Positions 10,165-59,940 of a stretch of 64,000 nucleotides of DNA are shown here, piece after piece; the first letter of the stretch is position 1; every line of letters begins with the position of its first letter. The DNA comes from Arthrobacter hankyongi. Lineage in GTDB: Bacteria > Actinomycetota > Actinomycetes > Actinomycetales > Micrococcaceae. The stretch spans positions 62,001 to 126,000 of the forward strand of contig NZ_JAKLTQ010000007.1 in the NCBI RefSeq assembly GCF_022012395.1. Reading direction: 5' to 3'. A program made the translations under genes and the position numbers. Below the pieces are notes generated by a model. It was not told the origin of the DNA. It saw only the letters and a program-made list of their open reading frames with translations, and made no database searches.

Positions 10165-10191
10165 TATTCTTGCGGTGAACCGCAAAGAATA
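10165..10191. promoter_or_regulatory. Inverted-repeat operator before the aldehyde dehydrogenase gene
   Basis: TATTCTTGCGG is followed after 4 bases by CCGCAAAGAATA, a near-perfect inverted repeat ending at the ribosome-binding site AGGAG (10191-10195). A closely similar block lies at 13622-13647 before the amine oxidase gene. The TATTCT arm could double as the -10 box. It is a candidate binding site for the adjacent TetR regulator. Confidence 0.65.
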
Positions 10192-10201
10192 GGAGTCCAC
10201 C

Positions 10202-42114: not shown

Positions 42115-42295
42115 CGGTGCCCCGCCTTTCCTTCGGGGCCGCCTGCAGCTGCCCAAAATACTCCCGGAGCTCATCGATTCCGTTTCTGAAGTCCTGGTAG
42201 GAGTGTTCCAGGGCCTGCCAGTCCTGCTGTGCAGTGGTTTCGTCGACGACGGCGAGGATACGGTCCCGGTGTGCGGGTCCCAGCGCGTTGTTCAT
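42107..42295 (-). CDS. Small 62-residue protein between amidohydrolase and amidase
   Basis: A short, polar, helical protein (PAHRDRILAVVDETTAQQDW, then ALEHSYQDFRNGIDELREYF). It overlaps the amidohydrolase stop by 4 bases and the amidase start by 8, so it is certainly translated within the unit. Position and size recall AtzG/GatC-type small subunits that bind amidase-family enzymes, but the sequence similarity is not clear to me. It could be a chaperone-like partner of the amidase. Confidence 0.65.
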   Translation of the reverse strand: MNNALGPAHRDRILAVVDETTAQQDWQALEHSYQDFRNGIDELREYFGQLQAAPKERRGTDD

Positions 42296-43765: not shown

Positions 43766-44704
43766 TTGACAGGGCAGACCACCACGCGTGGATTTGTTGG
43801 CTACGGCGAGTTCCCGCCGGATTTCCGCTGGCCCGGCGACGCCAGGGTGGCAGTCTCGCTGGTCATCAACGTGGAGGAAGGAGCCGAGCGCAGCCGGGCC
43901 CGCGGCGATTCCGCCGATGACCTCGGAGCCCACTGGATCCCGGCCCATGCGGTTCCGGGCGCCCGGAACCTCACGCTGGAATCTGCCTTCGAGTACGGTG
44001 CGCGGGCCGGCATTTGGCGCCTCCTGCGCATCCTTCGACACCACGAGGTCCGGGCCACAGCGTTCTGCTGCGCAGCAGCATTGCAGCTCAATCCGGGGGT
44101 GGCGGCTGCGCTGGTCCGGGACCGCCACGAGATCGCCGACCACGGCCAGCAGTGGGACACTCATACGGGCCTCAGCGCCGAGGACGAGCAGCAGCTGATC
44201 ATCCAATCCCGGGATGCCATCACTGCAAGCACCGGGGTACGCCCCACCAGTTGGTACTCGCGCGACGGGCTCAATCCGCACACGCGGCAGACGCTGGCTG
44301 CCGCAGGGTTCACCTACGACTCGAACAGTTTCAACGACGACGTGCCGCACTGGGGGGCCGGCCCAAACAATCCCCGGCTGCCGGTGCTGCCCTACGCCGG
44401 CGACACGAACGATTCCGGCCTCCTCGGCCTGTTTCCTACGGCCGGTGCCTTCGCCGGCCATCTCGCAGCCACGCTGGACATGCTGCTCGCCGACACGCGC
44501 AGCGGCCCCTCGGTCATGAGCATCGGACTGCATCCGCGCCTGATCGGCAGGCCGGCGTATGCGGCCGCCCTCGGCCGGTTCCTGGCCCATGCACAGCAGA
44601 ACGGAAAGGCAGTATGGTTCGCCACCCGCGAGGAGATCGTCAATTGGTGGCTGCTCCGGACCGGCGGAGACGCCGGCCCGGACCCTCACGTCTCTGAAAT
44701 TTAG
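43766..44704 (+). CDS. Polysaccharide deacetylase-fold hydrolase (PuuE/cyclic-imide-hydrolase type), copy 1
   Basis: A 312-residue NodB-fold metal hydrolase of the PuuE branch. It shows YGEFPPDFRWPGDARVAVSL, VINVEEGAE, DRHEIADHGQQW (HxxxxH metal site) and VMSIGLHPRLIGRP. PuuE proteins hydrolyse allantoin; relatives hydrolyse cyclic imides. The start is TTG (43766) with GAGGGGA ahead of it. It diverges from the amidohydrolase unit. A paralogue lies at 47341-48261. Confidence 0.82.
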   Translation: MTGQTTTRGFVGYGEFPPDFRWPGDARVAVSLVINVEEGAERSRARGDSADDLGAHWIPAHAVPGARNLTLESAFEYGARAGIWRLLRILRHHEVRATAFCCAAALQLNPGVAAALVRDRHEIADHGQQWDTHTGLSAEDEQQLIIQSRDAITASTGVRPTSWYSRDGLNPHTRQTLAAAGFTYDSNSFNDDVPHWGAGPNNPRLPVLPYAGDTNDSGLLGLFPTAGAFAGHLAATLDMLLADTRSGPSVMSIGLHPRLIGRPAYAAALGRFLAHAQQNGKAVWFATREEIVNWWLLRTGGDAGPDPHVSEI

Positions 44705-45420
44705 GACATGGCGAGCAGCCGGCCCCAGCCCGGGATGGGGCGGGCTGCCCCCGCGAGCTGCAGCAGGTGCCAGAGCGTGGCCGTGGCGCTGTCCACGACG
44801 GGCAGCCCGTACTCCGCTTCGAAGCCGGCGGCAAGGTACCCCGAGCGGAGGTTGGTGCCGATGCAGACGACGGCATCGGCACCGCCCATGAAGGCAGGCC
44901 GCATCATCGACTCGATGTCACCGCGGCCAAGGAGGGCAATCTGCGGATTCGACATCACGGTTGCCGGGACGAAGGTGCCGGCCACCTCGATGCCGTGCCG
45001 GGCATATTCCTCCTCGATGAGCCGCGCGATGCCGGCCGGGCCGGGGAAGACGACGGCGATCCGTGCGGCCGAGAGCGCCTGCAGGGCGGCCAGGACGGCC
45101 AGGGACGCGGTGGTCGCCGGTGCCCCCGTCGCCGCGGCCAGTCCCGCGCACAGGGCGCGGTCGCCGGCAACACCCGTCCAGGACCCCGACGTTCCGTGGA
45201 ACGCCACCGCGGCCACCTCGGCGTCGGCCAGCAACGCCGGGGCCTCGCCGAGCACCTCCGCGTCGATGGCGTCATCGAGGCTCGGCGGCAGCCGGAAACG
45301 GCTGTAGTGCACCCCCACATCCGGCTGGTCCGCGAGCATGGCTGCGGTCATCGACTCCGCGTTCGAATTCGACGAAGGCACCAGGACGCCCAGGCGGTAC
45401 GACGGACCGGGCGCATCCAC
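44701..45420 (-). CDS. Asp/Glu racemase superfamily protein with arylmalonate-decarboxylase-like active site
   Basis: A 239-residue protein of the maleate isomerase/arylmalonate decarboxylase group, with N-terminal LGVLVPSSNSNAESM. Racemases and maleate isomerases use two Cys. Here the first position is Gly76 in FHGTSGSW and only the second, Cys186 in VVCIGTN, is present. Arylmalonate decarboxylase has the same arrangement (Gly74, Cys188, Thr75-Ser76), and here Thr77-Ser78 follow. A decarboxylase or other one-Cys enzyme is therefore likelier than a racemase. GTG start overlaps the XRE-cupin stop by one base. Confidence 0.72.
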   Translation of the reverse strand: MDAPGPSYRLGVLVPSSNSNAESMTAAMLADQPDVGVHYSRFRLPPSLDDAIDAEVLGEAPALLADAEVAAVAFHGTSGSWTGVAGDRALCAGLAAATGAPATTASLAVLAALQALSAARIAVVFPGPAGIARLIEEEYARHGIEVAGTFVPATVMSNPQIALLGRGDIESMMRPAFMGGADAVVCIGTNLRSGYLAAGFEAEYGLPVVDSATATLWHLLQLAGAARPIPGWGRLLAMS

Positions 45421-46028
45421 TAGTGGGCCCTGCCGAGCGAGGGCGGCGTGGAGATGGCGAGCATGACCGCCGCGGACTCCGTGTGGTTGCTCCACCAGTG
45501 CGGCAGGGAGGCATCATAGGTCAGGCTGTCGCCGGGTCCCAGCGTGGAGTCCTGTCCCGCGACGGTCGCCACCAGCGTACCGGCCTGGACCAGGACGCAT
45601 TCCTCGCCTTCATGCGAGTGCGGGACATGGGAGCCGTCGAAGTTGGCGGGGATCGTCATGCTGACTACGCCAAGCTTCCGGTCGGTGTCCGGGACGATCA
45701 GTTCCATGCTGATGCCCTGGGACGGAATTTCGATCCGCCGCCTGTCCGTCCGGCGCACGAGCATGCGTTCCCGGCCCTCGTTCGGATTGGTGAACATGCT
45801 GGACAACGGGAGGTCGAGTGAGTTTGCGAGGCGAAGGAGTGTCGCGAAAGAGGGATTGCCGATCCCCCGCTCAATCTGGCTGATCAGGCCCGCGCTGACA
45901 CCGGCCCGGTCGGCGAGTTCTTCCACCGTGAACCGGCCGACCCGCTGGTTCTTGACCATCGCTCCCAGATGGGTGATCCAGAAGTCCCGGTCCAGGGTCT
46001 CGCTCGCCTCGTTATCTGCCGCCTCCAT
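45420..46028 (-). CDS. XRE-family regulator with C-terminal cupin domain
   Basis: About 202 residues. The HTH (residues about 27-75: FTVEELADRAGVSAGLISQI, ERGIGNPSFATLLRLANSLD) is followed by a cupin with HVPHSHEGEECVLV and GDSLTYDASLPHWWSN. Such regulators sense a small catabolic ligand. Its own promoter region has a copy of the shared element (46062-46094), so it is a candidate regulator of all six copies. The start may be ATG 46028 or GTG 46037, which has AAGGGGG closer to the ideal spacing. Confidence 0.85.
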   Translation of the reverse strand: MEAADNEASETLDRDFWITHLGAMVKNQRVGRFTVEELADRAGVSAGLISQIERGIGNPSFATLLRLANSLDLPLSSMFTNPNEGRERMLVRRTDRRRIEIPSQGISMELIVPDTDRKLGVVSMTIPANFDGSHVPHSHEGEECVLVQAGTLVATVAGQDSTLGPGDSLTYDASLPHWWSNHTESAAVMLAISTPPSLGRAH

Positions 46029-46061
46029 GACGTCCACGACGCCCCCTTCATTTATTGCGGA

Positions 46062-46094
46062 CTTTTCATCAGTATATCGAAGATGTTCAGTTTG
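46062..46094 (-). promoter_or_regulatory. Shared promoter element, copy f (XRE-cupin regulator)
   Basis: On the minus strand: CAAACT (weak -10 position), GAACAT, CTTCGATATACTGA and TGAAAAG. The middle, CTTCGATAT, is identical to copy a. It lies 34 bases before the regulator start and would allow autoregulation. Confidence 0.5.
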
Positions 46095-46135
46095 CCTGCT
46101 GGCGTTGGCCGCAAGGCTGCCGCCGCTCTGGCGAC

Positions 46136-46861
46136 TCATCCTAGCCGCGATGCCGCGTATCCGGACAGCAACGAGGCCAGTTCCCGCTCCCAATAGACCG
46201 CACAGCGGTCGGCACCGCTGGCGAACACATCTCCGGCGCCCTCCATGCCCGCTGCCGGGAGTCCCACGCTGTGGCCCGCCCGCGACAGCACGCCGACGAC
46301 GGTCCGGACCGCGTTTTCCACCGCCTCCGGGCCTCCGTCCCCCCTCCGCCGCAGGTCGCTTGCCAGATCCGTCGGCCCTACCCACCCCCCGCTGAAGAAC
46401 GGGGAAGCCGCGAAGTCTTCCACCCGCTCGACCGCGTCGACGGTCTCAAACAACACAGTAATCCGCGGCGGACGTGAGTAGTCCGCCCCGAATGCCGAAG
46501 CCTGCGATACCTGCTTCGGCCGCGACCCCTCGGGGGCATAGCGGGTCGCGTCGTGGGCGCGCTCAAGCTCGTTGATGCTGCACACCTGCGGCAGGACAAT
46601 CTCACCCACACCGGTGTTCGCGAACGCCACCAGCGTGTTCGCTTCCAGATCGGGAACACGGACCGCCACCTGTACCCCGGAGCCTGCCAACCGCTGCACA
46701 ACGTCACGGCACTGCTGGACGGTTAGCCCTGTCTGTTCCGCATCGAGGACCAGGAAGTCCACGCCCGCATGGACGAGGATGGCAAGCAGCGAGGGCGTCG
46801 GTTCGGCAGTAATCAATCCCACGCTGCGTTCCAGCGCCGGCATGGCGGTGTTGTGTGACAT
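46136..46861 (-). CDS. HpcH/HpaI aldolase/citrate lyase family protein
   Basis: A 241-residue class II pyruvate-type aldolase. It shows VGLITAEPTPSLLAILVHAG, VDFLVLDAEQTGLTV, and metal ligands Glu in TVLFETVDAVERV and Asp in WVGPTDLASDL. It would split or form a hydroxy-oxoacid to give pyruvate plus an aldehyde. It follows the cupin and deacetylase genes in the same direction. The substrate is unknown. Confidence 0.85.
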   Translation of the reverse strand: MSHNTAMPALERSVGLITAEPTPSLLAILVHAGVDFLVLDAEQTGLTVQQCRDVVQRLAGSGVQVAVRVPDLEANTLVAFANTGVGEIVLPQVCSINELERAHDATRYAPEGSRPKQVSQASAFGADYSRPPRITVLFETVDAVERVEDFAASPFFSGGWVGPTDLASDLRRRGDGGPEAVENAVRTVVGVLSRAGHSVGLPAAGMEGAGDVFASGADRCAVYWERELASLLSGYAASRLG

Positions 46862-46915: not shown

Positions 46916-47314
46916 CTACTCGTCGGGGACGAACTGCCAGTCCGCGGGCTTGCTGACCCCGACAACCAGGTCAACCGCGGTATCGCCGTCGTTCGTGAGG
47001 CCATGCCGGGTCCCCCGCGGGATGTAGATGCCGTCGCCGGGCCGGGCGCGGTACTCGGTGTCGCCGAGATGGACCAGCGGAGTTCCGGAGATGACGACAT
47101 AGAATTCCGAGGCATCGGGGTGGTGGTGACACAGGTGGTGCTGGCCAGGCAGGATCCGCCCCCAGCTGACGCACAGGTCATCGGAACCGCTCAGGTCCCG
47201 GGAGATGAGCGTGCACACCAGCCCCTGGTCGCGCTGGCCGTTCAGGCCGATCTTGTCGAGTTCCGCGAAACCTTGCTGGTCGACGTTGTGCACCAGCCGG
47301 GCAATATCCGTCAT
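46916..47314 (-). CDS. Cupin-domain protein
   Basis: A 132-residue single-cupin protein. Motif 1 is PGQHHLCHHHPDASEFYVVISG and motif 2 is PGDGIYIPRGTRHGLTN, giving His, Glu and His as metal ligands. Such proteins can be isomerases, lyases or dioxygenase-like enzymes. The ATG at 47314 is chosen since AAAGGGGA precedes it; a longer frame starts at the end of the deacetylase gene. It probably handles a small oxygen-rich intermediate. Confidence 0.8.
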   Translation of the reverse strand: MTDIARLVHNVDQQGFAELDKIGLNGQRDQGLVCTLISRDLSGSDDLCVSWGRILPGQHHLCHHHPDASEFYVVISGTPLVHLGDTEYRARPGDGIYIPRGTRHGLTNDGDTAVDLVVGVSKPADWQFVPDE

Positions 47315-47340
47315 CGCGTCCCCTTTGCTCGCGGCTGCCA

Positions 47341-48261
47341 TCACGCCACCCCCTCAAAGGCCGCCTCGGGCTGCCGTACCGGTGGATGCTCGAGCCACCA
47401 GCGGGCGATCTCCTCGCGGGTGGCAAACCAGACTCCCTGCTGGGCGAGCGCATACTCCAGGAAGCGGCGCACGCCGTGGGCGACGCTGGGCCGCCCACCG
47501 ATCCGCAGGTGCAGTCCGACCGACATCATCTTGGGCACGGTCTCGCCCTCGATCAGCAGGCAGTCGAGGGTGTCCTTGAGCACGGTGAAGAATTCGTCCG
47601 CGGTGCCCAGGCTCCCGCTGCCCCAGAACCGGGCATCGTTGGTGTCACCCGAATAGGGCAGGACAAGGTGCCGGGCAGGGCCGGCCTGAACATGGTAGGG
47701 CAGGTCATCGGCGTAGGAGTTCGAGTCGTAGAGGAAACCCTCCTCGGCGAGGATCGTCCGGGTGTTCTCGGTAATCCCCTCCCGGACGTACCACCCCACC
47801 GGCGTCACCCCGGCGACGGCCTGGATCGCAGCCACGCAGGCCCGGATTTCGGCCCGCTCCTCGGCGGGGGTCATGCCGACGGTCCCCCGCCACTTGTAGC
47901 CGTGCGCGCAGATCTCGTGTCCGTCGCGGACGATCGCCCGGGCCGCTTCGGGATTCCTTTCGAGCGCGGCGCCGCAGGCCATGAAGGTCGCCGGCACCTT
48001 GTATTCGCGCAGCATGCCCAGGTAGCGCCAGATGCCCACCCGGCTGCCGTACTCGAAGAACGACTCTTTCATCAGGCTCCGGCGGGCGGGATCGGCGGAC
48101 CAGCCCCCGAAGACCGACACATCCTCGTCGCGCCCGTCGCCGGCCTCGATGGAACTCTCCGCACCTTCCTCGTAATTGAGCACGAGGGAAACGGCGACCT
48201 TGGCATTATGCGGCCATCTGACGACCGGCGGGTTCTCCCCGTATCCAATCAGGTCTCTCAT
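47341..48261 (-). CDS. Polysaccharide deacetylase-fold hydrolase (PuuE/cyclic-imide-hydrolase type), copy 2
   Basis: A 306-residue paralogue of the protein at 43766, with YGENPPVVRWPHNAKVAVSL, VLNYEEGAESS, GHEICAHGYKWRG (HxxxH metal site) and MMSVGLHLRIGGRP. The conserved EEGAE and HG motifs are those of PuuE allantoinase and related cyclic amide hydrolases. GAGGAGTG precedes its ATG. Copy b of the shared element lies 42 bases upstream. The two copies differ in the region following EEGAE, so they may act on different rings. Confidence 0.85.
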   Translation of the reverse strand: MRDLIGYGENPPVVRWPHNAKVAVSLVLNYEEGAESSIEAGDGRDEDVSVFGGWSADPARRSLMKESFFEYGSRVGIWRYLGMLREYKVPATFMACGAALERNPEAARAIVRDGHEICAHGYKWRGTVGMTPAEERAEIRACVAAIQAVAGVTPVGWYVREGITENTRTILAEEGFLYDSNSYADDLPYHVQAGPARHLVLPYSGDTNDARFWGSGSLGTADEFFTVLKDTLDCLLIEGETVPKMMSVGLHLRIGGRPSVAHGVRRFLEYALAQQGVWFATREEIARWWLEHPPVRQPEAAFEGVA

Positions 48262-48302: not shown

Positions 48303-48332
48303 TTTTCAGTATTTTGATTTTTCTTCATTATA
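48303..48332 (-). promoter_or_regulatory. Shared promoter element, copy b (deacetylase copy 2 unit)
   Basis: Minus strand: perfect -10 TATAAT (48327-48332), then GAAGAA, AAATCAAAATA and CTGAAAA. It overlaps the last codon and stop of the metallo-beta-lactamase gene upstream and gives the deacetylase-cupin-aldolase genes their own promoter inside the long run of same-strand genes. Confidence 0.6.
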
Positions 48333-49134
48333 GAACTCTTCCCTCGTAGACCTGGCGGTGCGCCGCCAGCGACGTCATGAGCATGCCCTCAACGTCGTCG
48401 ATCACATTGCCGTGTGCCGGGCCGACGAACCTGACGGGAAGCGCTTCCAGCGTTTCCCTGACCTGCTCGAAGGCCGGGACGACGTCGACGAACTTGGTCC
48501 AGTAGAGCGCCCGGCCGGTGCCGTACGCCGCCTGTTCGACCGTCGGGGGCACCGGCATCTCGCCGGAGAGCATCCGGCACTGCCCGGGCAGGTGCACCGG
48601 CTCGTCGTCTTCCTCCGGCGCGGGCACGTCGTGGATGTAGGAGAACCCGTCCGAGACGAACAGCATCCCGGCCCCGCTGTCGTAGCCCCAGAGCGTGTTC
48701 TCGAGGTCGCGGATGAAGGCAGTCAGGAACCGGAACTCGCGGCCGCCGAGATCGAGGCACTCACCGGCTGCCTTGGAAATGAACCGGTCCTCGTATTCGG
48801 GGAAGTGCAGGAGGTAGTCGCGCACGTCGCCGACGACGAGCGCCGAGGGATATCTCTCGAGCAGCCCGGGCAGGTTGCCGGCGTGGGGTATTTCCGGGTG
48901 GGTGGGGAAGATATAGTCCAACGGACGCCCACCCAGCGCCGTGTCCAGCTGTTCCATGACCACCGGCAGGTGGGCCGGGTCCCCGGTATCGACCAGGATC
49001 GAGGCCCTGGCCCCCACCACCAGATAGGCGGAGACGTGGTAGTGGACCTCCTGGCCCGGGGCATTGGCGACCAGGCATCCGCCCAGCCAATGCACGCCGT
49101 CGGCAATCAGCCGGGCCTCATGTGCTGCGCTCAT
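48328..49134 (-). CDS. Metallo-beta-lactamase-fold protein, diiron-domain-like (pair A, metal-binding partner)
   Basis: A 268-residue MBL-fold protein close to the oxygen-binding diiron domain of flavodiiron proteins. Candidate ligands are His and Glu in PTHPEIPHAGN (HxExxH), Asp in LFVSDGFSYIH and His in VGPAHGNVIDD. The usual HxHxDH motif is absent; a Pro replaces the middle Asp. No flavodoxin domain follows. It overlaps the next gene (49131) by 4 bases and forms a pair with it; the paralogous pair is at 52334-54004. The reaction is unknown. Confidence 0.75.
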   Translation of the reverse strand: MSAAHEARLIADGVHWLGGCLVANAPGQEVHYHVSAYLVVGARASILVDTGDPAHLPVVMEQLDTALGGRPLDYIFPTHPEIPHAGNLPGLLERYPSALVVGDVRDYLLHFPEYEDRFISKAAGECLDLGGREFRFLTAFIRDLENTLWGYDSGAGMLFVSDGFSYIHDVPAPEEDDEPVHLPGQCRMLSGEMPVPPTVEQAAYGTGRALYWTKFVDVVPAFEQVRETLEALPVRFVGPAHGNVIDDVEGMLMTSLAAHRQVYEGRVL

Positions 49135-49898
49135 CGGCCCCCCATTTCAAAGATGGCTACCGCCAGGCCTTCGGCTTCCCGGGCGCATTCCGCGACGCCG
49201 GTGAACGGCACCCCGTAACCGGGCCCGATGGCGGCCACTTGCCGGTTGCGGACATTGCGCAGCACGTCATGGGCGATCGGCCGCGTGTCGGCCTGGGTGA
49301 ACCAGCGGAATTTCCGCAGTCCGTCACGCGGGTCCGCGCCGGCGTCTGTGCCGTGGGTGAAGGCGTCGGAGGTCAGCAGCACCCCCGACTCCGGATCGAA
49401 GATCCACAACGTCGGCAGCAGGCGGAGCAGCGGGGAAACGAACTCGAGGACGACGCCGTCGATCACTTCGACCTCAAGGGAACTGCCGGGCTCCACCGAG
49501 ACCCGCCGGGCCGCGGCCGCAGCACGGGGCACCGTGATCCCGCCCGTGTACCACACGGACTCGACGGAAAACCGGGCCTCGATGGCCGGCAGGTTCAGGC
49601 AGCATTCCATCTCGGTCCTCGTGAGCACGATGGACAGCGGCTCCCCCGGGGCGAGCAGACGGTCGAGCTGCCGCAGGATCTGGTCCGCGTGCAGACGGAT
49701 CCCGGTATCGACGAGCACCGAACCGGACCTGCCCCGGACCAGGTAGCAGCTGACCGGCTGGCGCCTGCGCACCCCGGGCGGGCACCAGCTGACCCGCTCA
49801 TCCAGCAGGATGTCTCCGCCCAGCCGGTGGATGCGCCCGCCGGCCAGGGGGTCGGGCCCGGAACCGAAGTTCGGGGCCTCCGCGGTGGACCGTTTCAT
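49131..49898 (-). CDS. Metallo-beta-lactamase-fold protein with degenerate metal site (pair A, partner 2)
   Basis: A 255-residue MBL-fold protein. In the place of HxHxDH it has VLTRTEMECCLNL, so the His ligands are Arg, Glu and Cys; the last His motif is GPGYG. The bridging Asp in LLTSDAFTHG remains. It is probably a structural or regulatory partner of the 48328 gene product, with which it overlaps by 4 bases. It also overlaps the isochorismatase stop by 4 bases. A paralogue with the same losses lies at 53156. Confidence 0.72.
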   Translation of the reverse strand: MKRSTAEAPNFGSGPDPLAGGRIHRLGGDILLDERVSWCPPGVRRRQPVSCYLVRGRSGSVLVDTGIRLHADQILRQLDRLLAPGEPLSIVLTRTEMECCLNLPAIEARFSVESVWYTGGITVPRAAAAARRVSVEPGSSLEVEVIDGVVLEFVSPLLRLLPTLWIFDPESGVLLTSDAFTHGTDAGADPRDGLRKFRWFTQADTRPIAHDVLRNVRNRQVAAIGPGYGVPFTGVAECAREAEGLAVAIFEMGGR

Positions 49899-50602
49899 CG
49901 CACGCCGTGCAGGCTCGAGGACATGGATGCCCCGCGGGACGCCGATTCCCACACGGCAACAGCCTCCTTGAGGGAGCACACGTCATGGCGTGCCTTCATG
50001 ACCGTCATCGCCGCATCGTGGACGACCGTGTCATACGCGCCCACGGCGTCCTCGAGCAGAACGGCATAGAAGTCGTTGTGCACCGCATCGCGGAGCGTGG
50101 CCTCGACGCATCCTCCGGTCGAGACCCCGACCAGGGCTACCGACTCGATTCCCTGGCTGCGCAGGAGCAGGGCGAGTTCGGTGCCCACGAACGCGCTGGG
50201 CCGGCGCTTGGTGATGACGACTTCCCCCGCTTCGGGCATGCACGGTTCGCAGAAGTCGGTGGCCGGATCACCCTTGAGGCTGAGCCTGCCCAGGTCGATC
50301 GGACGCCCGTTGGCTGCCGTGTACAGGGCCCGCAGCCAGGCGGCCGGTGAGCTGGCGCCGTCGGGAAGGTTTTCGACCCGGATGTGGAAGACGGGCACGC
50401 CGTTGGCCCGGGCTGCGGCGATTGCCTGTCCGCAGGCCTCGACGACGGCCGGCATCATGCTCAGGTCGTGGCCGGAGTCGCCGATGGCCCCCCCGGCCGA
50501 CACCGCGCCCTGCTGCATGTCGATGACCACAAGCGCCGTGGTCGCCGGGTCGAGCAGCTCATCGAGTGTGTCGCGTACCAGCTTTCCGCAAAGTTCAATC
50601 AT
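49895..50602 (-). CDS. Isochorismatase-family cysteine hydrolase
   Basis: A 235-residue cysteine hydrolase with the triad Asp in LVVIDMQQGA (about 28), Lys in ITKRRPSAF (about 132) and Cys in STGGCVEATLRDA (about 166). Members hydrolyse amides such as N-carbamoylsarcosine, nicotinamide, maleamate or ureidoacrylate. Here it fits a step releasing ammonia or carbamate from a ring-opened intermediate. It is translationally coupled to the MBL pair downstream. Confidence 0.85.
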   Translation of the reverse strand: MIELCGKLVRDTLDELLDPATTALVVIDMQQGAVSAGGAIGDSGHDLSMMPAVVEACGQAIAAARANGVPVFHIRVENLPDGASSPAAWLRALYTAANGRPIDLGRLSLKGDPATDFCEPCMPEAGEVVITKRRPSAFVGTELALLLRSQGIESVALVGVSTGGCVEATLRDAVHNDFYAVLLEDAVGAYDTVVHDAAMTVMKARHDVCSLKEAVAVWESASRGASMSSSLHGVR

Positions 50603-50624
50603 GGCTGTGCTCTTTCTCGTGGGG

Positions 50625-50662
50625 TTCGGGGCCGGCCGCAGTGGCCGCCGGCCGGCCCCGAA
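50625..50662 (-). terminator. Stem-loop after the Dpp-type binding-protein gene
   Basis: TTCGGGGCCGGCC (50625-50637) and GGCCGGCCCCGAA (50650-50662) form a perfect 13-bp stem. It lies just after the binding-protein stop on the minus strand and before the isochorismatase start. It may partly terminate or stabilise the upstream message, as common after binding-protein genes. Confidence 0.6.
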
Positions 50663-50682
50663 GGCAATGGTCCTGCGGCGGA

Positions 50683-52266
50683 CTAGCGGCCGAGGGCGTT
50701 GAAGTAAATCTGTCCGTTGGTCAGCGGCTGCGCCCCGGACAGCCCCGCCTTTTGGGCGAGCATGCCGCGGACTTCGACCAGGGAGAGGATCGGCGCGCCC
50801 TTGTCCACCAGCGCGGTCATCTCCTCGATCAGCTTCGTGCGCTTGTCCGCATCCTCGTCCGGCGTCGCCGCCAGGGCGGCACGGGCCTTGTCGAACTTGG
50901 GATCGGACCAGCCGGTGCTGTTGCTGGGGGCTCCCGTGCCGTAGAAGGCGTAGCTGTAGTACGCCGGGTCGGCGATCACGATCGGCTCGGAATAGAGCAC
51001 CGCCTGGTAGCGGCCGTCGATCAGGGCGGTGGAGAAGTCGGTGGCGCTGGCGACGTTCTGCAGCTTTACGTCGATGCCCACGTCCTTGAGCATGGACTGG
51101 ATGAGGACTGCCGACTTCGCCGCCACCGGGCCGGGGCGGGTCTCGCTGTAGCTGAGTGTCAGCGGGAAGCCGTTAGCATAGCCGGCCTCGGCCAGCAGCT
51201 TCCTGGCCGCGGCCGGGTCGAACTTGTAGATGGCTGAACCGTCCACCATCGGGAAAATGGAACCGGCCGGCTCGCCGTAGCCCGCATACGCCCCCTTGAC
51301 GAGGGCCGCGCGGTCGATGGCCATCGAAATCGCATGGCGCACCTGCTCATTGGCCAGCGGGCCGGTCTTGGTGTTGAACATCAGCGTGTCGCGGGTCTGG
51401 CTGGCGCAGTCGGCCACGCTGACCCCCTGAGCCTTCTTGAGGGACTCGTACTGGTCGTACTCGAAGGCGTTGGCCACCTGGACTTCACCGCTTTCGACCA
51501 GCTGGCTCCGCGTCGCGGTGCTCGGCACGGCCCTGACTACAACGCGCTTGACGTCCCCGCGCTCGCCTTCCCAGTCCGGGTCCGCGGTGACGGCGAGCGT
51601 GGTTCCCGGGGTGAACTCCTCCAGGTCCCAGCCGCTGTAGTCGGCGAGGTTCTTCGACAGCCAGTTGTTCGCCGTGGGATCATCCGCCGTCACGTGCTTC
51701 TTGGCTTCGGTGCTGTCATGGATGTAGAAAAGGTTGTTCTGCAGCGCCTCGATCGTGTACGAGGTGATCTCGGTCGTGTTCAGCTGCACGGTGTGATCGT
51801 CGATAACAGTGACGAGGTTGTCCACATCGAAGCCACTGCTTTTCAGGGTTCCCTGCATGACCGGCTGGCGCTTCATGCCGATGTCCAGGCTCCAGCGCAC
51901 GTCCTCGGCGGAGAGCGTGTTGCCGAACTGGCTGGTGAGTTTCCGCAGCTTGACGATGATGCCGGTGCCGTCCGCATTGGGTTCGGCGCTTTCTGCCAGC
52001 CGGCCGGCCACCTCGGTGGACGGGTTCTGGCAGGAGTTCTCATCCGACTTGTACTGCAGCAGCTGCGAGCCGAGCCCGCTCAGCACCACGTGGGAGGCGC
52101 TTCCGCCCCACGGCGACGGGGTGAGGCTGTCCGGCAGCGCCCCGACGGCGACGACGACATTGTCGGTCCGGGCCGGGGCGGCCTGCGAGGATGCGCCCGC
52201 ACAGCCGGCCAGGGATACTGCGAGCGCGGCGGCAATGCCGCCGGCGAACAAGGGCGAGCGTTTCAT
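50683..52266 (-). CDS. Dpp/Opp-type ABC transporter substrate-binding lipoprotein
   Basis: A 527-residue SBP_bac_5 protein with lipoprotein signal (MKRSPLFAGGIAAALAVS, lipobox LAGC). Typical segments are VVVAVGALPDSLTP near the N-terminus and MFNTKTGPLANEQVRHAISM AIDR in two parts around residue 310. It binds a peptide-like or opine-like ligand for the importer encoded from 54045 to 57665. Unusually, the binding-protein gene is separated from the permease/ATPase genes by the second MBL pair. Confidence 0.88.
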   Translation of the reverse strand: MKRSPLFAGGIAAALAVSLAGCAGASSQAAPARTDNVVVAVGALPDSLTPSPWGGSASHVVLSGLGSQLLQYKSDENSCQNPSTEVAGRLAESAEPNADGTGIIVKLRKLTSQFGNTLSAEDVRWSLDIGMKRQPVMQGTLKSSGFDVDNLVTVIDDHTVQLNTTEITSYTIEALQNNLFYIHDSTEAKKHVTADDPTANNWLSKNLADYSGWDLEEFTPGTTLAVTADPDWEGERGDVKRVVVRAVPSTATRSQLVESGEVQVANAFEYDQYESLKKAQGVSVADCASQTRDTLMFNTKTGPLANEQVRHAISMAIDRAALVKGAYAGYGEPAGSIFPMVDGSAIYKFDPAAARKLLAEAGYANGFPLTLSYSETRPGPVAAKSAVLIQSMLKDVGIDVKLQNVASATDFSTALIDGRYQAVLYSEPIVIADPAYYSYAFYGTGAPSNSTGWSDPKFDKARAALAATPDEDADKRTKLIEEMTALVDKGAPILSLVEVRGMLAQKAGLSGAQPLTNGQIYFNALGR

Positions 52267-52333
52267 AGTCCAGGCTCCTTGATTTGTAGGACGCGGTTGG
52301 GACATGTGAAGGGCAGTACGCGGCGCAGGGCGC

Positions 52334-53146
52334 CTAGTAGCGGTAGGCCTGCTTGTGGCCGGTCCTGATGATGGGCTCCACCGCATGGACGTTCGTGATG
52401 AAGTTCCCGTGGGTGGGTGCGGCCGAGGTGACCCCTAGCTCGTCGACAAGCTTGAGCACCCGGTTATAGACCTGGTCCGCGTCGTTCGCGAAACGTGCCC
52501 AGTACAGGGCGCTGCCGGTAAAGAAGGCCGCATTCTCGACGGCGATGGGCGCCGAGAGTTCGCCGGTGGTCAGCCCGCACTCGCCCGGCAGGTGAACGGG
52601 GTCTTCATCGTCGAGGTCGGGCCGGTGCATGTAGCAGAAGCCGTCGGCGGTGAACAGCACCCCGGCCTGCGGCACGAAACCCCACTGGGTGTTGGGCAGG
52701 TCGCGGATGAGCGCCTCGACCACCACGAATTCCCGGCCGCCCAGATCGATCCGGTCACCCGGCACCCGGGCGTGCAGGCTGGGCACGATCTCGGGGTAGA
52801 AGAGGTGGTAGTCACGGATGTCCCCGACGACCTGCACCTGCGGGTACTTCTGCACGAGCCGGGGGAGGTTGCCGGTGTGCGGCAGCTCAGGGTGGGTGGG
52901 GAACACGTAGGTCAGTTCCCGGCCGTCCAGCAGTTGGTCCAAGGTGGCGGAGATGATGTTCCAGCTGGACGGGTTGCCCGTGTCCACCAGGATGGATGAG
53001 TGCTCGCCCTGGACGAGGTAAGTGGAGTTGTGCCCGTGGATGACCCGGTCCTCCAGGTGGAATGGCAGGCAGGAGCTCATCCAGGTCACGCCGTCAGCGA
53101 CCATGCGCGGAAGGTCGCTGCTCATTGTTTCGACAAGTGCTTCCAT
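52334..53146 (-). CDS. Metallo-beta-lactamase-fold protein, diiron-domain-like (pair B, metal-binding partner)
   Basis: A 270-residue paralogue of the 48328 gene product. It keeps PTHPELPHTGN (HxExxH), Asp in LFTADGFCYMH and His in APTHGNFITN, as well as LGGREFVVVEALIRDLPNT. By eye roughly half of the residues match pair A. It lies 9 bases after its degenerate partner (53156) and 67 bases before the binding-protein gene. The reaction is unknown. Confidence 0.75.
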   Translation of the reverse strand: MEALVETMSSDLPRMVADGVTWMSSCLPFHLEDRVIHGHNSTYLVQGEHSSILVDTGNPSSWNIISATLDQLLDGRELTYVFPTHPELPHTGNLPRLVQKYPQVQVVGDIRDYHLFYPEIVPSLHARVPGDRIDLGGREFVVVEALIRDLPNTQWGFVPQAGVLFTADGFCYMHRPDLDDEDPVHLPGECGLTTGELSAPIAVENAAFFTGSALYWARFANDADQVYNRVLKLVDELGVTSAAPTHGNFITNVHAVEPIIRTGHKQAYRY

Positions 53147-53155
53147 CGGATCCTC

Positions 53156-54004
53156 CTAGGCTGGCTGCGGAATCAGGTGGGCGCGCTCCGGGGTCAGGGC
53201 GCTGAGCATGAAGTCCAGGTGCCGCCGGACGACGTCGCGGCCGCGGAGCACACAGCCCCGGGACGGGGCGATAATCTCCGGGTCCAGTGCCGTGAACTTC
53301 TCGGCGAGCCATTCGCGCAGCGGCCCGCAGGTCGAGCGCGGGATCCACTCGTACTTGGCATAGAGGTGTCCGGCGACCTGCTCGGCCGTGGTGGTGTCTT
53401 CCATGGTGGAGTCGATGACGCGCGGGCTGTCCGGGCTGTCCATGACCCCGTGGGTGAACGTATCCGAGGTAAACAGCGTCCCGGTCTGCTCGTCCCAGCC
53501 CCAGAAGGTGGGCAGGAGCCGCAGCAGCGGAGACTCGATTTCCAGCACCCTGCCCGGCGCCACGTCGATTTGGGCCGCGCGGGCCAAAGAATCCCCCTCC
53601 CCGGTGCGCTTCTCGTCGATCTGGTGCCGCCGGCCGCGCAAGGCCATCCGGCTCAGGTCGTCGAAGGCGTCGAACGGATTAATGACGCCGCCGGTGAACA
53701 GGCGCTCGATGTCGAACCGCCTCGCGATCGGCTCAAGGTTGGACACGCAGTCCATTTCGCTGCGGGTGAAGAATACCGAGACACCGCCGCCCTCGCCGAT
53801 CAGTCCGGCCAGGTCGTCGAGGATCTCCTGGCTGTGGACGGCCAGTCCGGAGTCGACGAGCAACCGCGACTGCCCCTCGGTGATCAGGTAGCAGTTCGAG
53901 GGCTGGAACCCCGTGGATCCGGCCGGCACCCAACTGACGCGGTTGTCGAGGGGAATCAGCCCGCCGAGGACGACCATCTTTTCTGGTTTCAGTATTGTGA
54001 ACAT
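53156..54004 (-). CDS. Metallo-beta-lactamase-fold protein with degenerate metal site (pair B, partner 2)
   Basis: A 282-residue paralogue of the 49131 product: FFTRSEMDCVSNL replaces the metal motif, LFTSDTFTHG keeps the Asp, and the last His is lost (APSRGC). The ATG at 54004 falls inside copy e of the shared element, 6 bases after its -10 box, so the mRNA may be leaderless. The alternative ATG at 53977 (MVVLGGLIPLDN) aligns with the conserved start of the paralogue but lacks a clear ribosome-binding site. Confidence 0.72.
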   Translation of the reverse strand: MFTILKPEKMVVLGGLIPLDNRVSWVPAGSTGFQPSNCYLITEGQSRLLVDSGLAVHSQEILDDLAGLIGEGGGVSVFFTRSEMDCVSNLEPIARRFDIERLFTGGVINPFDAFDDLSRMALRGRRHQIDEKRTGEGDSLARAAQIDVAPGRVLEIESPLLRLLPTFWGWDEQTGTLFTSDTFTHGVMDSPDSPRVIDSTMEDTTTAEQVAGHLYAKYEWIPRSTCGPLREWLAEKFTALDPEIIAPSRGCVLRGRDVVRRHLDFMLSALTPERAHLIPQPA

Positions 54005-54044: not shown

Positions 54045-55106
54045 TCAGGCGGAAACTGCAGCCGTTTCCGGGCGCTGCGGCCGCTTCCGGCCCGCCACCG
54101 CATTGCTCCGGGTGCGCGGGTCGAGAAGGGTAATGAGGGCGTCCAGGATCACGTAGCCGAGCAGGCTTGTGGCGCCCATGATCAGGACAAAGCCCTGGAT
54201 GACCGGGACATCGCCCTTGAGCACCCCGTCCAGTGACCAGCCGCCGACGCCGGGCCAGGAGAACACGCTTTCGATGATCGCGGCGCCGCTGAGTGAGGCT
54301 GCGAAGAGCAGGACCATGTAGGTCATCAGGGACCCCCTGACGTCGCTGAGCGCATACCGGTACACCTGGGCCGGCCGCAGGCCGCAGGCCCTGGCAAACT
54401 CGATCTGGGGCGAGTTCAGCACCTGGAGCAACCCGGTGCGCACGGTCTTGCCGAAGGGCGCGGCGAAGAACAGGCCCATCGTGATGATCGGCAGGGCCGC
54501 CCGGCCGAGGATGGATGCCACCAGGTCCCACTTCCCGGCCAGCACGGCGTCGATGGGTACGGCTCCGGTCACCTTGGGCGGCGGGATGTCCGCACTGGAG
54601 AGCATCCCCAGGGGTGCCGGCGCAAGGTGCAGCTGCTGGTAGAAGATGAAGAGCAGGAGCAGGGCCAGCACGAATTCCGGCATCGCCATCAGGACCGATA
54701 CACCGGCGGTGAAGGACTTGTCCGCGAAACGGCCGTATTTGTAGGCCGCGAATGTGCCCGAGGCCATCCCGATCACCAGCGCCAGGATCAGTCCGGGAAC
54801 CAGGTAGACCAGGGTATTCGGCAGGCGCGTCCAGATTTCCGCCGCAACCGGGCTGCCGGTGAAGAATGACTGGCCCAGGTCACCGCGGAGGGTCCGGCCC
54901 ATGTAGTCGAGGTAGCGCTCCCAGAACGGCAGGTCCAGCCCCAGCTGGGCGTTGATCCGGGCGACGTCGGCCGGGGTGGCGTATTCGCCCAGCAGCGCGA
55001 CTGCCGGATCCCCCGGAAGCAGGGAAACCAGCCCGAAACTCAGCGTGATCAGTCCCAGCAGGAGCAGGAAGGCGATCACCAACCGCGAAATGATGTAGCG
55101 GATCAT
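54045..55106 (-). CDS. Dpp/Opp-type ABC transporter permease (DppB-like)
   Basis: A 353-residue permease beginning MIRYIISRLVIAFLLLLGL, typical of DppB/OppB proteins, with LLPGDPAVALLG after the first helix and the family motif region around ARACGLRPAQVYRYALSDVR. It forms the channel with the permease at 56778. Its start overlaps the ATPase stop by 4 bases. Order here (C-D-F-B) differs from the usual B-C-D-F. Confidence 0.88.
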   Translation of the reverse strand: MIRYIISRLVIAFLLLLGLITLSFGLVSLLPGDPAVALLGEYATPADVARINAQLGLDLPFWERYLDYMGRTLRGDLGQSFFTGSPVAAEIWTRLPNTLVYLVPGLILALVIGMASGTFAAYKYGRFADKSFTAGVSVLMAMPEFVLALLLLFIFYQQLHLAPAPLGMLSSADIPPPKVTGAVPIDAVLAGKWDLVASILGRAALPIITMGLFFAAPFGKTVRTGLLQVLNSPQIEFARACGLRPAQVYRYALSDVRGSLMTYMVLLFAASLSGAAIIESVFSWPGVGGWSLDGVLKGDVPVIQGFVLIMGATSLLGYVILDALITLLDPRTRSNAVAGRKRPQRPETAAVSA

Positions 55107-55945
55107 AGCGTTCCCGCCTTTGTCCGGTCCTGGCTGTCGCCGTCGGAGACGGCGCCGGCTGGATTGGGTGAATAGGGGATCGGCGGCATGGCCGCTAACA
55201 TCAGCGCCTGGGTATAGGGCTGCTGCGGATCAGACAGCACCTGGCGGGTCGTGCCGGTCTCGACGAAGCGTCCGCGGTGCATCACGGCCACGCGCGAACA
55301 GAAGTGCCTGACCGTTTCGATGTCGTGCGAAATAAAGACATAGGTCAGTCCCCGGGAGACCTGCAGCGCTGCCAGCATGCGCAGGATCGACGCCCGGATG
55401 GTCAGGTCCAGGGAGGCGGTGGGCTCATCCAGCACCACCAGGGTGGGGTCGGTGACGAGCGCCCGGGCGATGCCGACCCGCTGCTGCTGTCCGCCGCTGA
55501 GGTTCGCCGGCCGGCGCTCGAGGAAGTCCGCCGAGAGCCCGACTTCCTCAAGCGTTTCCGTCACCCGGCGGAGCCTGTCGGCCCGTGTGCCGCTGGTCCG
55601 CGCCACGATCAGCGGCTCCTCCACGATCTGGCGGATGGTCAGCCGCGGATTCAGCGACGCGAACGGCTCCTGGAAGACAATCTGCCAGTGCCGGCGCCGC
55701 CGGCGCAGTTGCTGCCGCGTCAGCGCGCGGACGTCCTCGCCGTCGAGGATGATCGAGCCTGAATCTGCCTCGTGCAGCCGCAGAATCAACCGGCCGAGCG
55801 TGGACTTTCCGGATCCGCTTTCGCCGATAATGCCGACGCATTCGCCGGCTTCGACCGACAGCGAGACACTGTCAACCGCGGTGACGAGCTGCCCCTGCGG
55901 AGTGCGGAAGGCCTTCCTGAGGTCCTTGATTTCGATCAGTGCCAT
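55103..55945 (-). CDS. Dpp/Opp-type ABC transporter ATP-binding protein (DppF-like)
   Basis: A 280-residue ABC ATPase with Walker A GESGSGKSTLGR, Q-loop FQEPFASLNPRLTI, signature NLSGGQQQRVGIARAL and Walker B LVVLDEPTASLD. The start at 55945 has GGAGG 8 bases upstream, inside the end of the previous gene; a start 5 codons earlier is less likely. It works with the ATPase at 55948. Confidence 0.9.
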   Translation of the reverse strand: MALIEIKDLRKAFRTPQGQLVTAVDSVSLSVEAGECVGIIGESGSGKSTLGRLILRLHEADSGSIILDGEDVRALTRQQLRRRRRHWQIVFQEPFASLNPRLTIRQIVEEPLIVARTSGTRADRLRRVTETLEEVGLSADFLERRPANLSGGQQQRVGIARALVTDPTLVVLDEPTASLDLTIRASILRMLAALQVSRGLTYVFISHDIETVRHFCSRVAVMHRGRFVETGTTRQVLSDPQQPYTQALMLAAMPPIPYSPNPAGAVSDGDSQDRTKAGTL

Positions 55946-55947
55946 GG

Positions 55948-56781
55948 TCAGGGCCTCCATGATTCGGAGAGTTCAGCGGCAGGTGCGGCGTCGCCTTCCG
56001 GCCGCACCACGGAGTTGAGCAGCGAGACGGTATAGGGGTGCTGCGGGTCCACGAACACCTGGGATACCTCCCCCTGCTCGACGATTTCGCCCTGGTACAT
56101 CACCAGGACCCGGTCGCAGTATTCGGCCACCACCCCCAGGTCGTGCGTGACAATGAGCATGGAACGGCCGCTGTCCACGGTGAGCCGGCGGAGGGTGTCG
56201 AGCACCTGGCGCTGTACCGTCAGGTCGAGCGCCGTGGTCGGCTCGTCCGCGATCACCAGGCGGGGGTTCAGGAAGAGAGCCATGGCAATGACCACCCGCT
56301 GTGCCATGCCGCCGCTGAGCTCGTGGGCATAGCCATGCATGACGCGCTGCGGCTCGTTCACCCCGGTGGCAGCCAGCAGCTGCAGAGCGTGCTCGCGCGA
56401 GGCACCGTCCACCGGCAGTCCGTGCGCCTTGGCGATGTTCGCGAACTGCTTCTCGATGCGCACCACGGGATTCAATGCGCTGAAGGGATTCTGGGCGATG
56501 AATCCGATCTCCTTGCCCCGAATGCTGCGGATATCGCGTTCCCGCAGCTGCAGCAGGTCCTGGCCCGAAAAGACGGCACTCCCGCCGGCGACCCGGCCGG
56601 GCGGCATCAGCAGCTTGATCACCGAGCGGACCACCGTCGATTTGCCGGATCCCGATTCCCCGACGATCCCGACGGCCTCGCTCTGGCCCACCTCGAAGGA
56701 AATCCCGTGCAGTGCCCGCACCGTGCCGCCGCGGGTGTCGAACTCGGTCACGAGGTCCCGTACCTGGAGTCGTGTTGTCAT
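55948..56781 (-). CDS. Dpp/Opp-type ABC transporter ATP-binding protein (DppD-like)
   Basis: A 277-residue ABC ATPase with Walker A GESGSGKSTVVRSV, Q-loop FIAQNPFSALNPVVRIEKQF, signature [16 protein letters not shown] and Walker B LVIADEPTTALD, then the oligopeptide-type C-terminus. It overlaps the permease stop by 4 bases and pairs with the DppF-like ATPase. Confidence 0.9.
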   Translation of the reverse strand: MTTRLQVRDLVTEFDTRGGTVRALHGISFEVGQSEAVGIVGESGSGKSTVVRSVIKLLMPPGRVAGGSAVFSGQDLLQLRERDIRSIRGKEIGFIAQNPFSALNPVVRIEKQFANIAKAHGLPVDGASREHALQLLAATGVNEPQRVMHGYAHELSGGMAQRVVIAMALFLNPRLVIADEPTTALDLTVQRQVLDTLRRLTVDSGRSMLIVTHDLGVVAEYCDRVLVMYQGEIVEQGEVSQVFVDPQHPYTVSLLNSVVRPEGDAAPAAELSESWRP

Positions 56782-57665
56782 CGGGCCCGCTCCACTCGCT
56801 CGATCCTGTTTTCAATGGCTCCGGCGACGATGTTCAGCGAGGCGATCACCAGCAGCATGGCCGCCGTCGGAAAGGCCGCCGCCCACCACTCGCCCCGGAT
56901 CAGCATGCTGAAGCCGTCGCTGATCATGGCTCCCCAGGTCGGCTGCGGAGGCCTGACGCCGACACCGAGGAAGTTCAGCGCCGCGATCGCCCCCAGGGCG
57001 CTGGCGGCCGTCAGCGTCGCCTGCACCAGCACAACGCCGTAGGCGTTGCGCAGGATGTGGTTGAAGGCGACGCGCACCGGAGAGCAGCCGATGGCAACGG
57101 CGGCCTCCACGTAGCGCGATGAGCGCAGCGATACCGCTGCAGCGCGGGAAAGCCGGACGAAGCGCGGCGCTGCCACGATGGCGATGGCGAGCACCACGTC
57201 GGTTGCCCCGCCGCCCATGAGCTGGATGGAAACGACGGCGATCACGATTATCGGGAGGGCTGCGAAGGCATCGACGATCCGCATCAGCGCTTCGCCGGCG
57301 CGGCCGCTCGTGGCGAACAACCCCAGCGGAACCCCGACGAGGAGCGAGAGCCCCGTGGCCGCCAGTGCGATCGGCAGGTCCAGCTTGGCAGCCTCCAGGG
57401 TGCGGGCGAAAACGTCCATCCCGTTTTCGTCAGTACCGAACCAATGACTCAGGTTCGGCGCGATGCCGATCGAATCCGGATCCGGCCGCAGCGGATCGTG
57501 GGGCAGGGGCAGGACCAGGGCAACAAGCGGCAGGCCGATAATCACCGCGGCCGCGAAGGCGGTCAGGATGGGGCTTGAGCGGCCGTGGGCGCGCATCCGT
57601 GCCCGCCTGGCCCATGCCGGCGGCCGCAGCCCCGGAGAGGTGGACGGGAGTTCTTGGACACTCAT
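56778..57665 (-). CDS. Dpp/Opp-type ABC transporter permease (DppC-like)
   Basis: A 295-residue permease with the DppC/OppC hallmark WFGTDENGMDVFAR before the second membrane segment and RYVEAAVAIGCSPVRVAFNH as the ATPase contact region. It is the first gene of the importer operon. The divergent promoter region upstream carries copies c and d of the shared element. Confidence 0.9.
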   Translation of the reverse strand: MSVQELPSTSPGLRPPAWARRARMRAHGRSSPILTAFAAAVIIGLPLVALVLPLPHDPLRPDPDSIGIAPNLSHWFGTDENGMDVFARTLEAAKLDLPIALAATGLSLLVGVPLGLFATSGRAGEALMRIVDAFAALPIIVIAVVSIQLMGGGATDVVLAIAIVAAPRFVRLSRAAAVSLRSSRYVEAAVAIGCSPVRVAFNHILRNAYGVVLVQATLTAASALGAIAALNFLGVGVRPPQPTWGAMISDGFSMLIRGEWWAAAFPTAAMLLVIASLNIVAGAIENRIERVERAR

Positions 57666-57989: not shown

Positions 57990-58017
57990 TCAATGTCGAG
58001 AAGAATGGGAACCTGTG

Positions 58018-58992
58018 ATGCCAAGCCTGCCCGAAACCGCCACCATCGCCGGCACCGAACCCGCGGCTTCCGCCCCGGGCGTCCGTTATCTCCTGCACGA
58101 CGGCGAGTTGGTGGACTACGCCGATGCCCGCCTCCACGTGCTCAGCACCACCCTGAAGTACGGCGTCGGGGTCTTCGAAGGCTTCCGGGCCTACTGGAGC
58201 GAGGAAGACCAGCAGCTCTACGCCTTCCGGGTCGAAGACCACATGAGGCGCCTGGTCGAATCCATGCGGGTGGTCGAAATCGCAGGCCCCCGCGACACCG
58301 CGGCGCTCTCCGAGCAACTCCTCGGCCTGATCCGGGCAAACGATCTGCGCGGCAACCTGCACATGCGGGCGCAGGTATTCGTGGACTCCAGCGACGGCAA
58401 GCCCGAGGACAGCGGACCGGCCACCGTGTTCATGGCCGCGATTCCGATGGGCAACTACTTCGGCGCCACCGGCCTGCATGTGCAGATCAGCAGCTGGGCG
58501 CGCCTGTCCGACAGGTCCATGCCACCGCGTATCAAGTCCATCGCCAATTACCAGAACGGCCGGCTCGCCCTGCTGGAGGCCCGCCGCAACGGCTACGATG
58601 CGGCTCTCCTGCTGACCGAGAACGGCCACGTCGCCGAGGGCGCGGGCTACAACGTGTTTATGGTCCGCAAGGGCCGGCTCTGCACACCGCCGGTCACCGA
58701 GAACATCCTCGAGGGCGTGACGCGGGACAGCGTGCTGCACCTGGCCCGCACCGAACTGGGACTCGATGTCGACATCCGTCCCATCGACCGGACCGAACTC
58801 TACTCGGCGGACGAGGTCTTCGTGTGCGGCAGTGCCGCCGAGGTCAACCACGTCGCTTCCGTCGACCGCACGACGATCGGCGGGGGGACGGCGGGCGAGA
58901 TTACCGGCCGGCTGCAGGACCTCTACCGGCAGGCCGTCGTCGGCCGCGTCGCTGCCGACCAGCACTGGGCCACACCGGTCTACGCCGGGTGA
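58018..58992 (+). CDS. Class IV aminotransferase (branched-chain/D-amino-acid type)
   Basis: A 324-residue PLP enzyme of fold type IV. It shows LKYGVGVFEGFRAYW, RMRVVE-like EDHMRRLVESMRV, PLP Lys in PPRIKSIANYQNGR (about 175), and the EGAGYNVFMVRKG and LYSADEVFVCGSAAEV motifs. It would interconvert an amino acid and its keto acid. As first gene of a unit with formamidase and hydantoinase, it may process the amino acid freed from a hydantoin-like ring. A GTG codon lies one codon upstream of the chosen ATG. Confidence 0.87.
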   Translation: MPSLPETATIAGTEPAASAPGVRYLLHDGELVDYADARLHVLSTTLKYGVGVFEGFRAYWSEEDQQLYAFRVEDHMRRLVESMRVVEIAGPRDTAALSEQLLGLIRANDLRGNLHMRAQVFVDSSDGKPEDSGPATVFMAAIPMGNYFGATGLHVQISSWARLSDRSMPPRIKSIANYQNGRLALLEARRNGYDAALLLTENGHVAEGAGYNVFMVRKGRLCTPPVTENILEGVTRDSVLHLARTELGLDVDIRPIDRTELYSADEVFVCGSAAEVNHVASVDRTTIGGGTAGEITGRLQDLYRQAVVGRVAADQHWATPVYAG

Positions 58993-59933: not shown

Positions 59934-59940
59934 GTTCCCC

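Follow-up and report, generated by a model that had tools for sequence, protein, structure and literature searches.

The window, a stretch of 64,000 nucleotides from Arthrobacter hankyongi (contig NZ_JAKLTQ010000007.1, positions 62,001 to 126,000), contains two pairs of genes, pair A and pair B, for proteins of the metallo-β-lactamase (MBL) fold (Table 1). Each pair consists of a metal-binding member with an HPE motif, here called type A (genes A1 and B1), and a member with a depleted metal site, called type B (genes A2 and B2). The four open reading frames (ORFs) and their common order were reported in the initial annotation without a strand; all four are present and lie on the minus strand, and the plus-strand frames at the same place are unrelated. 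The depleted member is transcribed first and the HPE member second in both pairs, A2 and A1 overlapping by 4 nucleotides (nt) and B2 and B1 being separated by 9 nt. The TR[ST]EM[DE]C motif described for the depleted members is found as TRTEMEC in A2 and TRSEMDC in B2. A1 and B1 are 47% identical (E 1.0e-74) and A2 and B2 are 37% identical (E 2.5e-32), values that exclude a chance likeness. A recent duplication of one pair was ruled out, as each pair groups with its own orthologues in the tree described below; pairs A and B are old paralogues.

Judging from profiles and predicted structures, both types appear to be MBL domains with flavodiiron proteins as their nearest relatives. A1, A2 and B1 pass the PF00753 cut-off of 22.7 bits (42.1, 24.7 and 43.4) and B2, at 16.7, falls below it; the membership of B2 is supported otherwise, as a 37-row B profile finds the oxygen-binding diiron protein (ODP) and ROO, and the B2 model matches MBL folds. 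A search of the PDB with the A1 sequence returned flavodiiron proteins (FprA 2ohh at 1.9e-13), while ODP was the only match for the B2 sequence alone, at 0.78. With 37-row profiles the best match was FprA for A (2.6e-22) and ODP for B (9.8e-10, with ROO at 9.5e-9). AlphaFold models were obtained for A1 (pLDDT 87.0, pTM 0.89) and B2 (pLDDT 88.9, pTM 0.89), and both are confident; their top Foldseek matches were FprA (1.7e-16) and ROO (2.0e-13), respectively; the Flv1 core structures 6h0c/6h0d were among the matches. The cut-off of the ODP family PF19583 (27.2) is missed by A1 (25.4) and B1 (20.5), and A2 and B2 are not listed for it. A Pfam scan of the four ORFs (255-282 residues) at E 0.01 gave solely MBL-type domains, with no flavodoxin and no rubredoxin, in agreement with the initial annotation.

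The diiron site of flavodiiron proteins has seven ligands, HxExDH followed by H, D and H, and this motif is visible in the FprA alignment and in L067, L070 and L072. Residues were tallied over 46 type A and 46 type B proteins, the window included, after four A pieces and two B ORFs of the Arthrobacter sp. Hiyo8 locus (L035) had been dropped. In type A, H79, E81, H84, D162 and H241 are each kept in 46/46 proteins, which by the FprA profile and the joint alignment makes five of the seven flavodiiron positions. Pro takes the place of the Asp of HxExDH in 44/46, and in 46/46 the position of the middle His is matched by D143. The proposal that the HPE member is flavodiiron-like is correct at the level of fold and profile but not for the ligand set, in which two positions have changed. 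H31, H168, H181, C186 and E192 are also present in all 46 proteins. The A1 model is least certain at residues 170-179, directly before H181 and C186, and this segment may perhaps be a lid. Type B has the motif RxEx[DE][CSAE], with R94, E96 and an Asp or Glu at 98 in 46/46 and C99 in 38/46. D178, W165 and W199 are likewise found in 46/46 and K196 in 44/46; R159 (Arg in 40 and Lys in 4 of 46) is at or beside the middle ligand, an alignment gap making its exact position ambiguous. The column of the final His holds Arg in 17, Tyr in 14, His in 12 and Leu in 3 of the 46, so the reported lack of this residue applies to both window copies but not to the family as a whole. Membership of the flavodiiron proteins was ruled out by the ligand set and the missing flavodoxin domain.

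The two types occur together. The genome scan, which used query patterns from type A only, yielded 31 loci (28 assemblies by accession), and a type B ORF is present in 31/31. Two further samples were searched, with 6 to 8 candidates scored per genome, so that genome counts are lower bounds. Among 396 genomes of the phylum (cut-offs E <=1e-15 for B and E <=1e-40 for A), B was found in 3 and A in the same 3, and every B place (5/5) adjoins an A. The class sample around G547 (289 genomes, A cut-off 1e-15) gave B in 3 genomes and an A match in 10; the same 3 genomes have A matches that adjoin B at 6e-75 or better, and the other 7 matches are weaker, come from frames of 373-420 residues and correspond to the flavodiiron clade of the tree. 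Over both samples 8/8 B places adjoin an A, and 4 of the 8 are new. The carriers known beforehand were the two sample centres, the window's genome (G000) and G547, and G193, which by its coordinates is the L022 genome. Ten genomes or records already contained loci; in nine of them a further MBL match adjoins each strong B place (14/14), and the tenth, which is haloarchaeal, has no strong B. It had been anticipated that homologues occurring mostly apart would speak against a partnership, and the 31/31 and 8/8 counts show the opposite. Of 72,556 plasmid records, 7 match B2, and each of these matches A1 as well; one of them, from Paracoccus, has both members ligand-intact and so is not of the A/B type. 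In Arthrobacter sp. StoSoilB13 both pairs are on one 1-Mb plasmid. Two plasmids of Roseomonas marmotae, p1318-7 (L042) and p1318-6 (L079), each carry an MBL pair with an identical A protein accession.

Spacing was assessed for 46 pairs, with the window counted and L035 left out, and is tight: 25 overlap, 20 more are <=60 nt apart and 1 (L038) is 1,049 nt apart, the overlap count being approximate because start codons were chosen by script. B precedes A in 34/46 and A precedes B in 12/46. No natural A-B fusion was seen when ORF lengths were viewed by eye, and the long frames in L048 and L050 are overlapping frames. A single-protein search of the window's family was positive in 1/149 sampled genomes, the window's own; the pair is therefore patchy and was probably acquired.

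A tree of 79 rows, chosen from a larger set and with seven flavodiiron rows as the outgroup, places the 29 A rows in one clade (100/100) and the 29 B rows in another (100/99). Six haloarchaeal pairs form two further clades with support of 100/99 and 97/85. H79, P83, H84, D143, D162 and H241 are kept in 6/6 members of each of these clades, with Asp at E81 in 11/12, and all seven residues are kept in both members of the Paracoccus pair (L045). These pairs demonstrate that pairing exists without depletion. None of five groupings of the haloarchaeal pairs with respect to A and B was rejected (p-AU 0.13-0.40). The ligand-keeping tandem pairs of this branch come from haloarchaeal plasmids (L043, L044, L075-L078) and from Paracoccus (L045), and they may show the state before the loss of the metal site in one partner.

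Over the 46 pairs the A and B distances are correlated with r 0.965, a value reached in 0/2000 permutations, and B diverges faster than A (median distance 0.68 vs 0.59). Ratios of nonsynonymous to synonymous change (dN/dS, Nei-Gojobori) for the four genes were 0.07-0.27 between the window and five relatives, a rough set given synonymous distances to the window of 0.76-2.06, and 0.01-0.21 for three closer pairs. The ratio for depleted members was 0.02-0.27 in 16/16 comparisons, and type B is under purifying selection. In L035 both A genes are broken or cut short (9935-10537, 13923-14730) and the B genes are whole, as a result of either sequencing errors or real breaks. One TAG is present in the aligned A stretch of L065 (G756:C7:39719-40462), yet a stop-free frame of 276 codons is listed there.

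The window genes that surround the pairs are given in Table 1. Between 57665 (ABC transporter) and 46916 (small cupin) the minus strand carries closely spaced genes in the order permease, two ATPases, permease, B2, B1, solute-binding protein, isochorismatase-family protein, A2, A1, PuuE-like protein and cupin, and this run reads like one predicted operon. No redox protein is among the labelled genes at 40702-61365. The region is conserved as a unit in Arthrobacter, Sinomonas and Microbacterium, and in these genera the MBL family is a marker for a cluster made up mostly of amide-cleaving enzyme families. Imides, ureides and pyrimidines were weighed as the substrates of a whole-cluster pathway, and none could be fixed. 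A protein of the phenol 2-monooxygenase subfamily (35523-37421, plus strand; NF006144 1080.7 bits, cut-off 560) is outside the compared block.

Table 1. Genes of the MBL pairs and their surroundings in the window, followed by Rieske proteins at pair loci of other genomes.
Feature	Position	Strand	Remarks
Amidase	40702-42174	-	PF01425
Amidohydrolase superfamily protein	42292-43665	-	
Second PuuE-like protein	43766-44704	+	TIGR03212 241.6 bits, below cut-off
AMDase / Asp-Glu racemase superfamily protein	44701-45495	-	
HTH (helix-turn-helix)-cupin regulator	45423-46184	-	
HpcH/HpaI aldolase family	46136-46861	-	
Small cupin	46916-47344	-	Cupin_2
PuuE-like polysaccharide deacetylase-family protein	47341-48261	-	TIGR03212 307.5 bits, below cut-off 424.6
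MBL A1, type A	48328-49134	-	268 residues; HPEIPH, D143, D162, H241; second gene of pair A
MBL A2, type B	49131-49898	-	255 residues; TRTEMEC; first gene of pair A
Isochorismatase-family protein	49895-50602	-	best NCBIfam BiuH, RutB, both below cut-off; overlaps A2 by 4 nt
SBP_bac_5 solute-binding protein	50683-52266	-	between the pairs; ORF opens 52386, start 52266 picked by eye
MBL B1, type A	52334-53146	-	270 residues; HPELPH; second gene of pair B
MBL B2, type B	53156-54004	-	282 residues; TRSEMDC; first gene of pair B
ABC (ATP-binding cassette) transporter, oligopeptide type	54045-57665	-	four genes
ABC permease	54045-55106	-	
ABC ATPases	55103-55960, 55948-56781	-	
ABC permease	56778-57665	-	
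Class IV aminotransferase, branched-chain type	58015-58992	+	above NCBIfam cut-off
FmdA/AmdA family protein	59028-59933	+	
Hydantoinase/dihydropyrimidinase-like protein	59926-61365	+	below NCBIfam cut-offs
Rieske protein	L022:1382-3398		Pfam; amidohydrolase adjoining
Rieske protein	L027:10648-11013		Pfam
Rieske protein	L043:5382-6673		annotation; amidohydrolase adjoining
Rieske protein	L083:9388-11255		similarity; amidohydrolase adjoining (by similarity)

Both pairs are found in the same order, with the same or most neighbours, in 14/31 loci (L008-L017, L020, L021, L023, L035), and L018 has both pairs rearranged. Neighbours in loci other than the window were labelled in part, and flanks of <=10 kb were compared. 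Away from these conserved surroundings they include genes for carboxylate transporters, a 3-isopropylmalate dehydratase-like protein, CoA-transferase, phosphoenolpyruvate (PEP) mutase, class II aldolase, AMDase-like proteins and luciferase-type or FAD monooxygenases. An amide catabolic operon, which the initial annotation took to be the setting of the pairs, is thus not constant: carboxylate transporters, CoA transferases and flavin monooxygenases adjoin them elsewhere. What the settings have in common is the breakdown of small acids, of ring compounds or of amides, and amides alone are not the shared feature. At least two TctC-like transporter receptors are present in each of the Rhizobiales pair loci L025, L027, L029 and L030, one confirmed by Pfam and the rest by similarity. 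A Rieske protein is repeatedly found close to the MBL pair, in lineages that are distant from one another. The output of a script that looked for iron-sulphur motifs was set aside, as it missed the Rieske proteins seen by Pfam in L022 and L027.

From the fold, the ligand changes, the pairing, the co-inheritance, the purifying selection and the order of the genes we infer that A and B very probably form a heteromer. A two-subunit enzyme with a pseudo-metalloenzyme subunit is the firmest conclusion and is well supported by this genomic evidence. With moderate confidence it is further suggested that each pair is one two-subunit hydrolase, A being the metalloenzyme and B the pseudo-metalloenzyme, that acts on a substrate of the amide route. 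Subunit A would belong to the flavodiiron/ODP branch as a metalloenzyme whose site, formed by H79, E81, H84, D143, D162 and H241, is rich in carboxylates. In subunit B the first motif His would have given way to the invariant Arg and the second to Cys, Ser, Ala or Glu, with E96 and D178 remaining, and a dinuclear metal is probably absent from B. The basic residues R94, R159 and K196 of B may pair with its leftover acids and hold the A subunit or the substrate. Cleavage of an amide, imide or ester bond may be effected by water that the metal of A activates, and in the window operon a cyclic amide or ureide route could supply the substrate as one of its intermediates. The presence of two diverged pairs suggests that there are two substrates, or two steps. 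In favour of hydrolysis are the neighbours, which include an amidase and proteins resembling cyclic amidohydrolases and PuuE, the absence of redox genes from the labelled part, and the precedents of DnhAB and MetCaCb discussed below.

Several observations weigh against such a hydrolase. Flavodiiron proteins and ODP, to which the two types are most closely related, act in redox chemistry or bind O2 and are not hydrolases. The motif Asp helps to place water in many MBL hydrolases, and it is lost in type A. Rieske-domain proteins are found in four pair loci, which would fit a redox role there. The settings vary widely, and the amide pathway may not reveal the reaction. Tight linkage and matching distances are also expected from co-transfer of a gene block, and the A cut-off of 1e-40 in the phylum sample leaves room for weaker A proteins without B there.

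An alternative that is unlikely but deserves attention is a heteromeric enzyme that uses or reduces O2, like the cyanobacterial Flv1/Flv3 couple or ODP; A would contain iron, B would have a structural role or route electrons, and an unlinked ferredoxin or flavin would supply the electrons. Ancestry favours such a role, since flavodiiron proteins and ODP are closest to both subunits in sequence and in fold, and the four Rieske loci and the flavin monooxygenases of others are in keeping with it. According to PMC4390876, Flv1 and Flv2 are without the canonical ligands that Flv3 and Flv4 keep. However, the window proteins (255-282 residues) have no flavodoxin domain, the labelled cluster is without a redox gene, two ligand positions have changed in A itself, and the motif Glu is Asp in 11/12 haloarchaeal members. 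It is improbable that A and B are separate proteins or homomers that are merely co-transcribed, for example an enzyme and a sensor or chaperone. Linkage alone would also explain the co-occurrence and the matching distances, but the pair persists across varied settings, in both gene orders and with 25/46 overlaps while the other neighbours change. Decay of B as a duplicate of A, to which its lost ligands and faster divergence might point, is ruled out for practical purposes by dN/dS of 0.02-0.27 in all 16 comparisons and the invariance of R94, E96, D178, W165 and W199 within a single clade, and the one split case seen, L035, is reversed, with A in pieces and B whole; the conserved partner proposed in the initial annotation is instead borne out by these ratios together with the constant pairing.

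More tentatively, the pairs could represent a new family of enzymes, built from two MBL proteins and present in both bacteria and haloarchaea; in it, the haloarchaeal pairs and one Paracoccus pair keep ligands in both partners, and the bacterial A/B line has traded one metal site for an invariant Arg and other basic residues. If this is true, nature offers a series from active/active to active/pseudoenzyme heteromers, with bond cleavage in several catabolic routes. What is new here is an uncharacterised family in actinobacteria and alphaproteobacteria and the haloarchaeal tandem pairs with both members ligand-keeping. The family is a testable case of a partner that loses its metal site yet stays, for which the haloarchaeal pairs serve as a comparison. 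In the five A/B plasmid records whose annotation was examined the members are named only 'MBL fold metallo-hydrolase' or 'hypothetical protein'. Such names make the two-subunit nature invisible to annotation, and expression of a single gene might fail.

A small literature search of a limited library found no description of this paired MBL family. ODP (PF19583; 6qrq, 6qnm) is not known to have a paired partner; it resembles the window proteins as a stand-alone MBL domain of the same branch, and it differs in that A1 and B1 score under its Pfam cut-off. Flv1/Flv3 share the MBL-domain branch and combine one ligand-canonical kind with one without. Unlike the flavodiiron and Flv proteins, the window type has no flavodoxin or flavin reductase domain and is found in catabolic settings, and type A, though retained with B, departs at 2/7 ligand positions. 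The initial annotation knew no described system of this design, but there is a precedent. DnhAB is the 2,4-dinitroanisole demethylase of Nocardioides sp. JS1661 (PMC11631463, PMC11271267), and PMC11271267 cites it as an MBL case of an inactive cognate. The Dnh genes overlap and encode two MBL-family subunits of one catabolic hydrolase; tandem MBL genes with one depleted member are likewise found in the window pairs and their relatives. At 987 and 957 bp the Dnh genes are longer than those of the window, and the characterised proteins named there as similar to Dnh are alkylsulfatases, whereas the window proteins match flavodiiron proteins; the likeness to Dnh is one of design. The metformin hydrolase MetCaCb, either subunit of which is inactive alone (PMC11271267), similarly has paired homologous genes with metal in one subunit only and the other a needed partner, but it belongs to the arginase (ureohydrolase) family and not to MBL proteins. 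These precedents lower the novelty of the window pairs, and the breadth of the family and its haloarchaeal pairs add interest.

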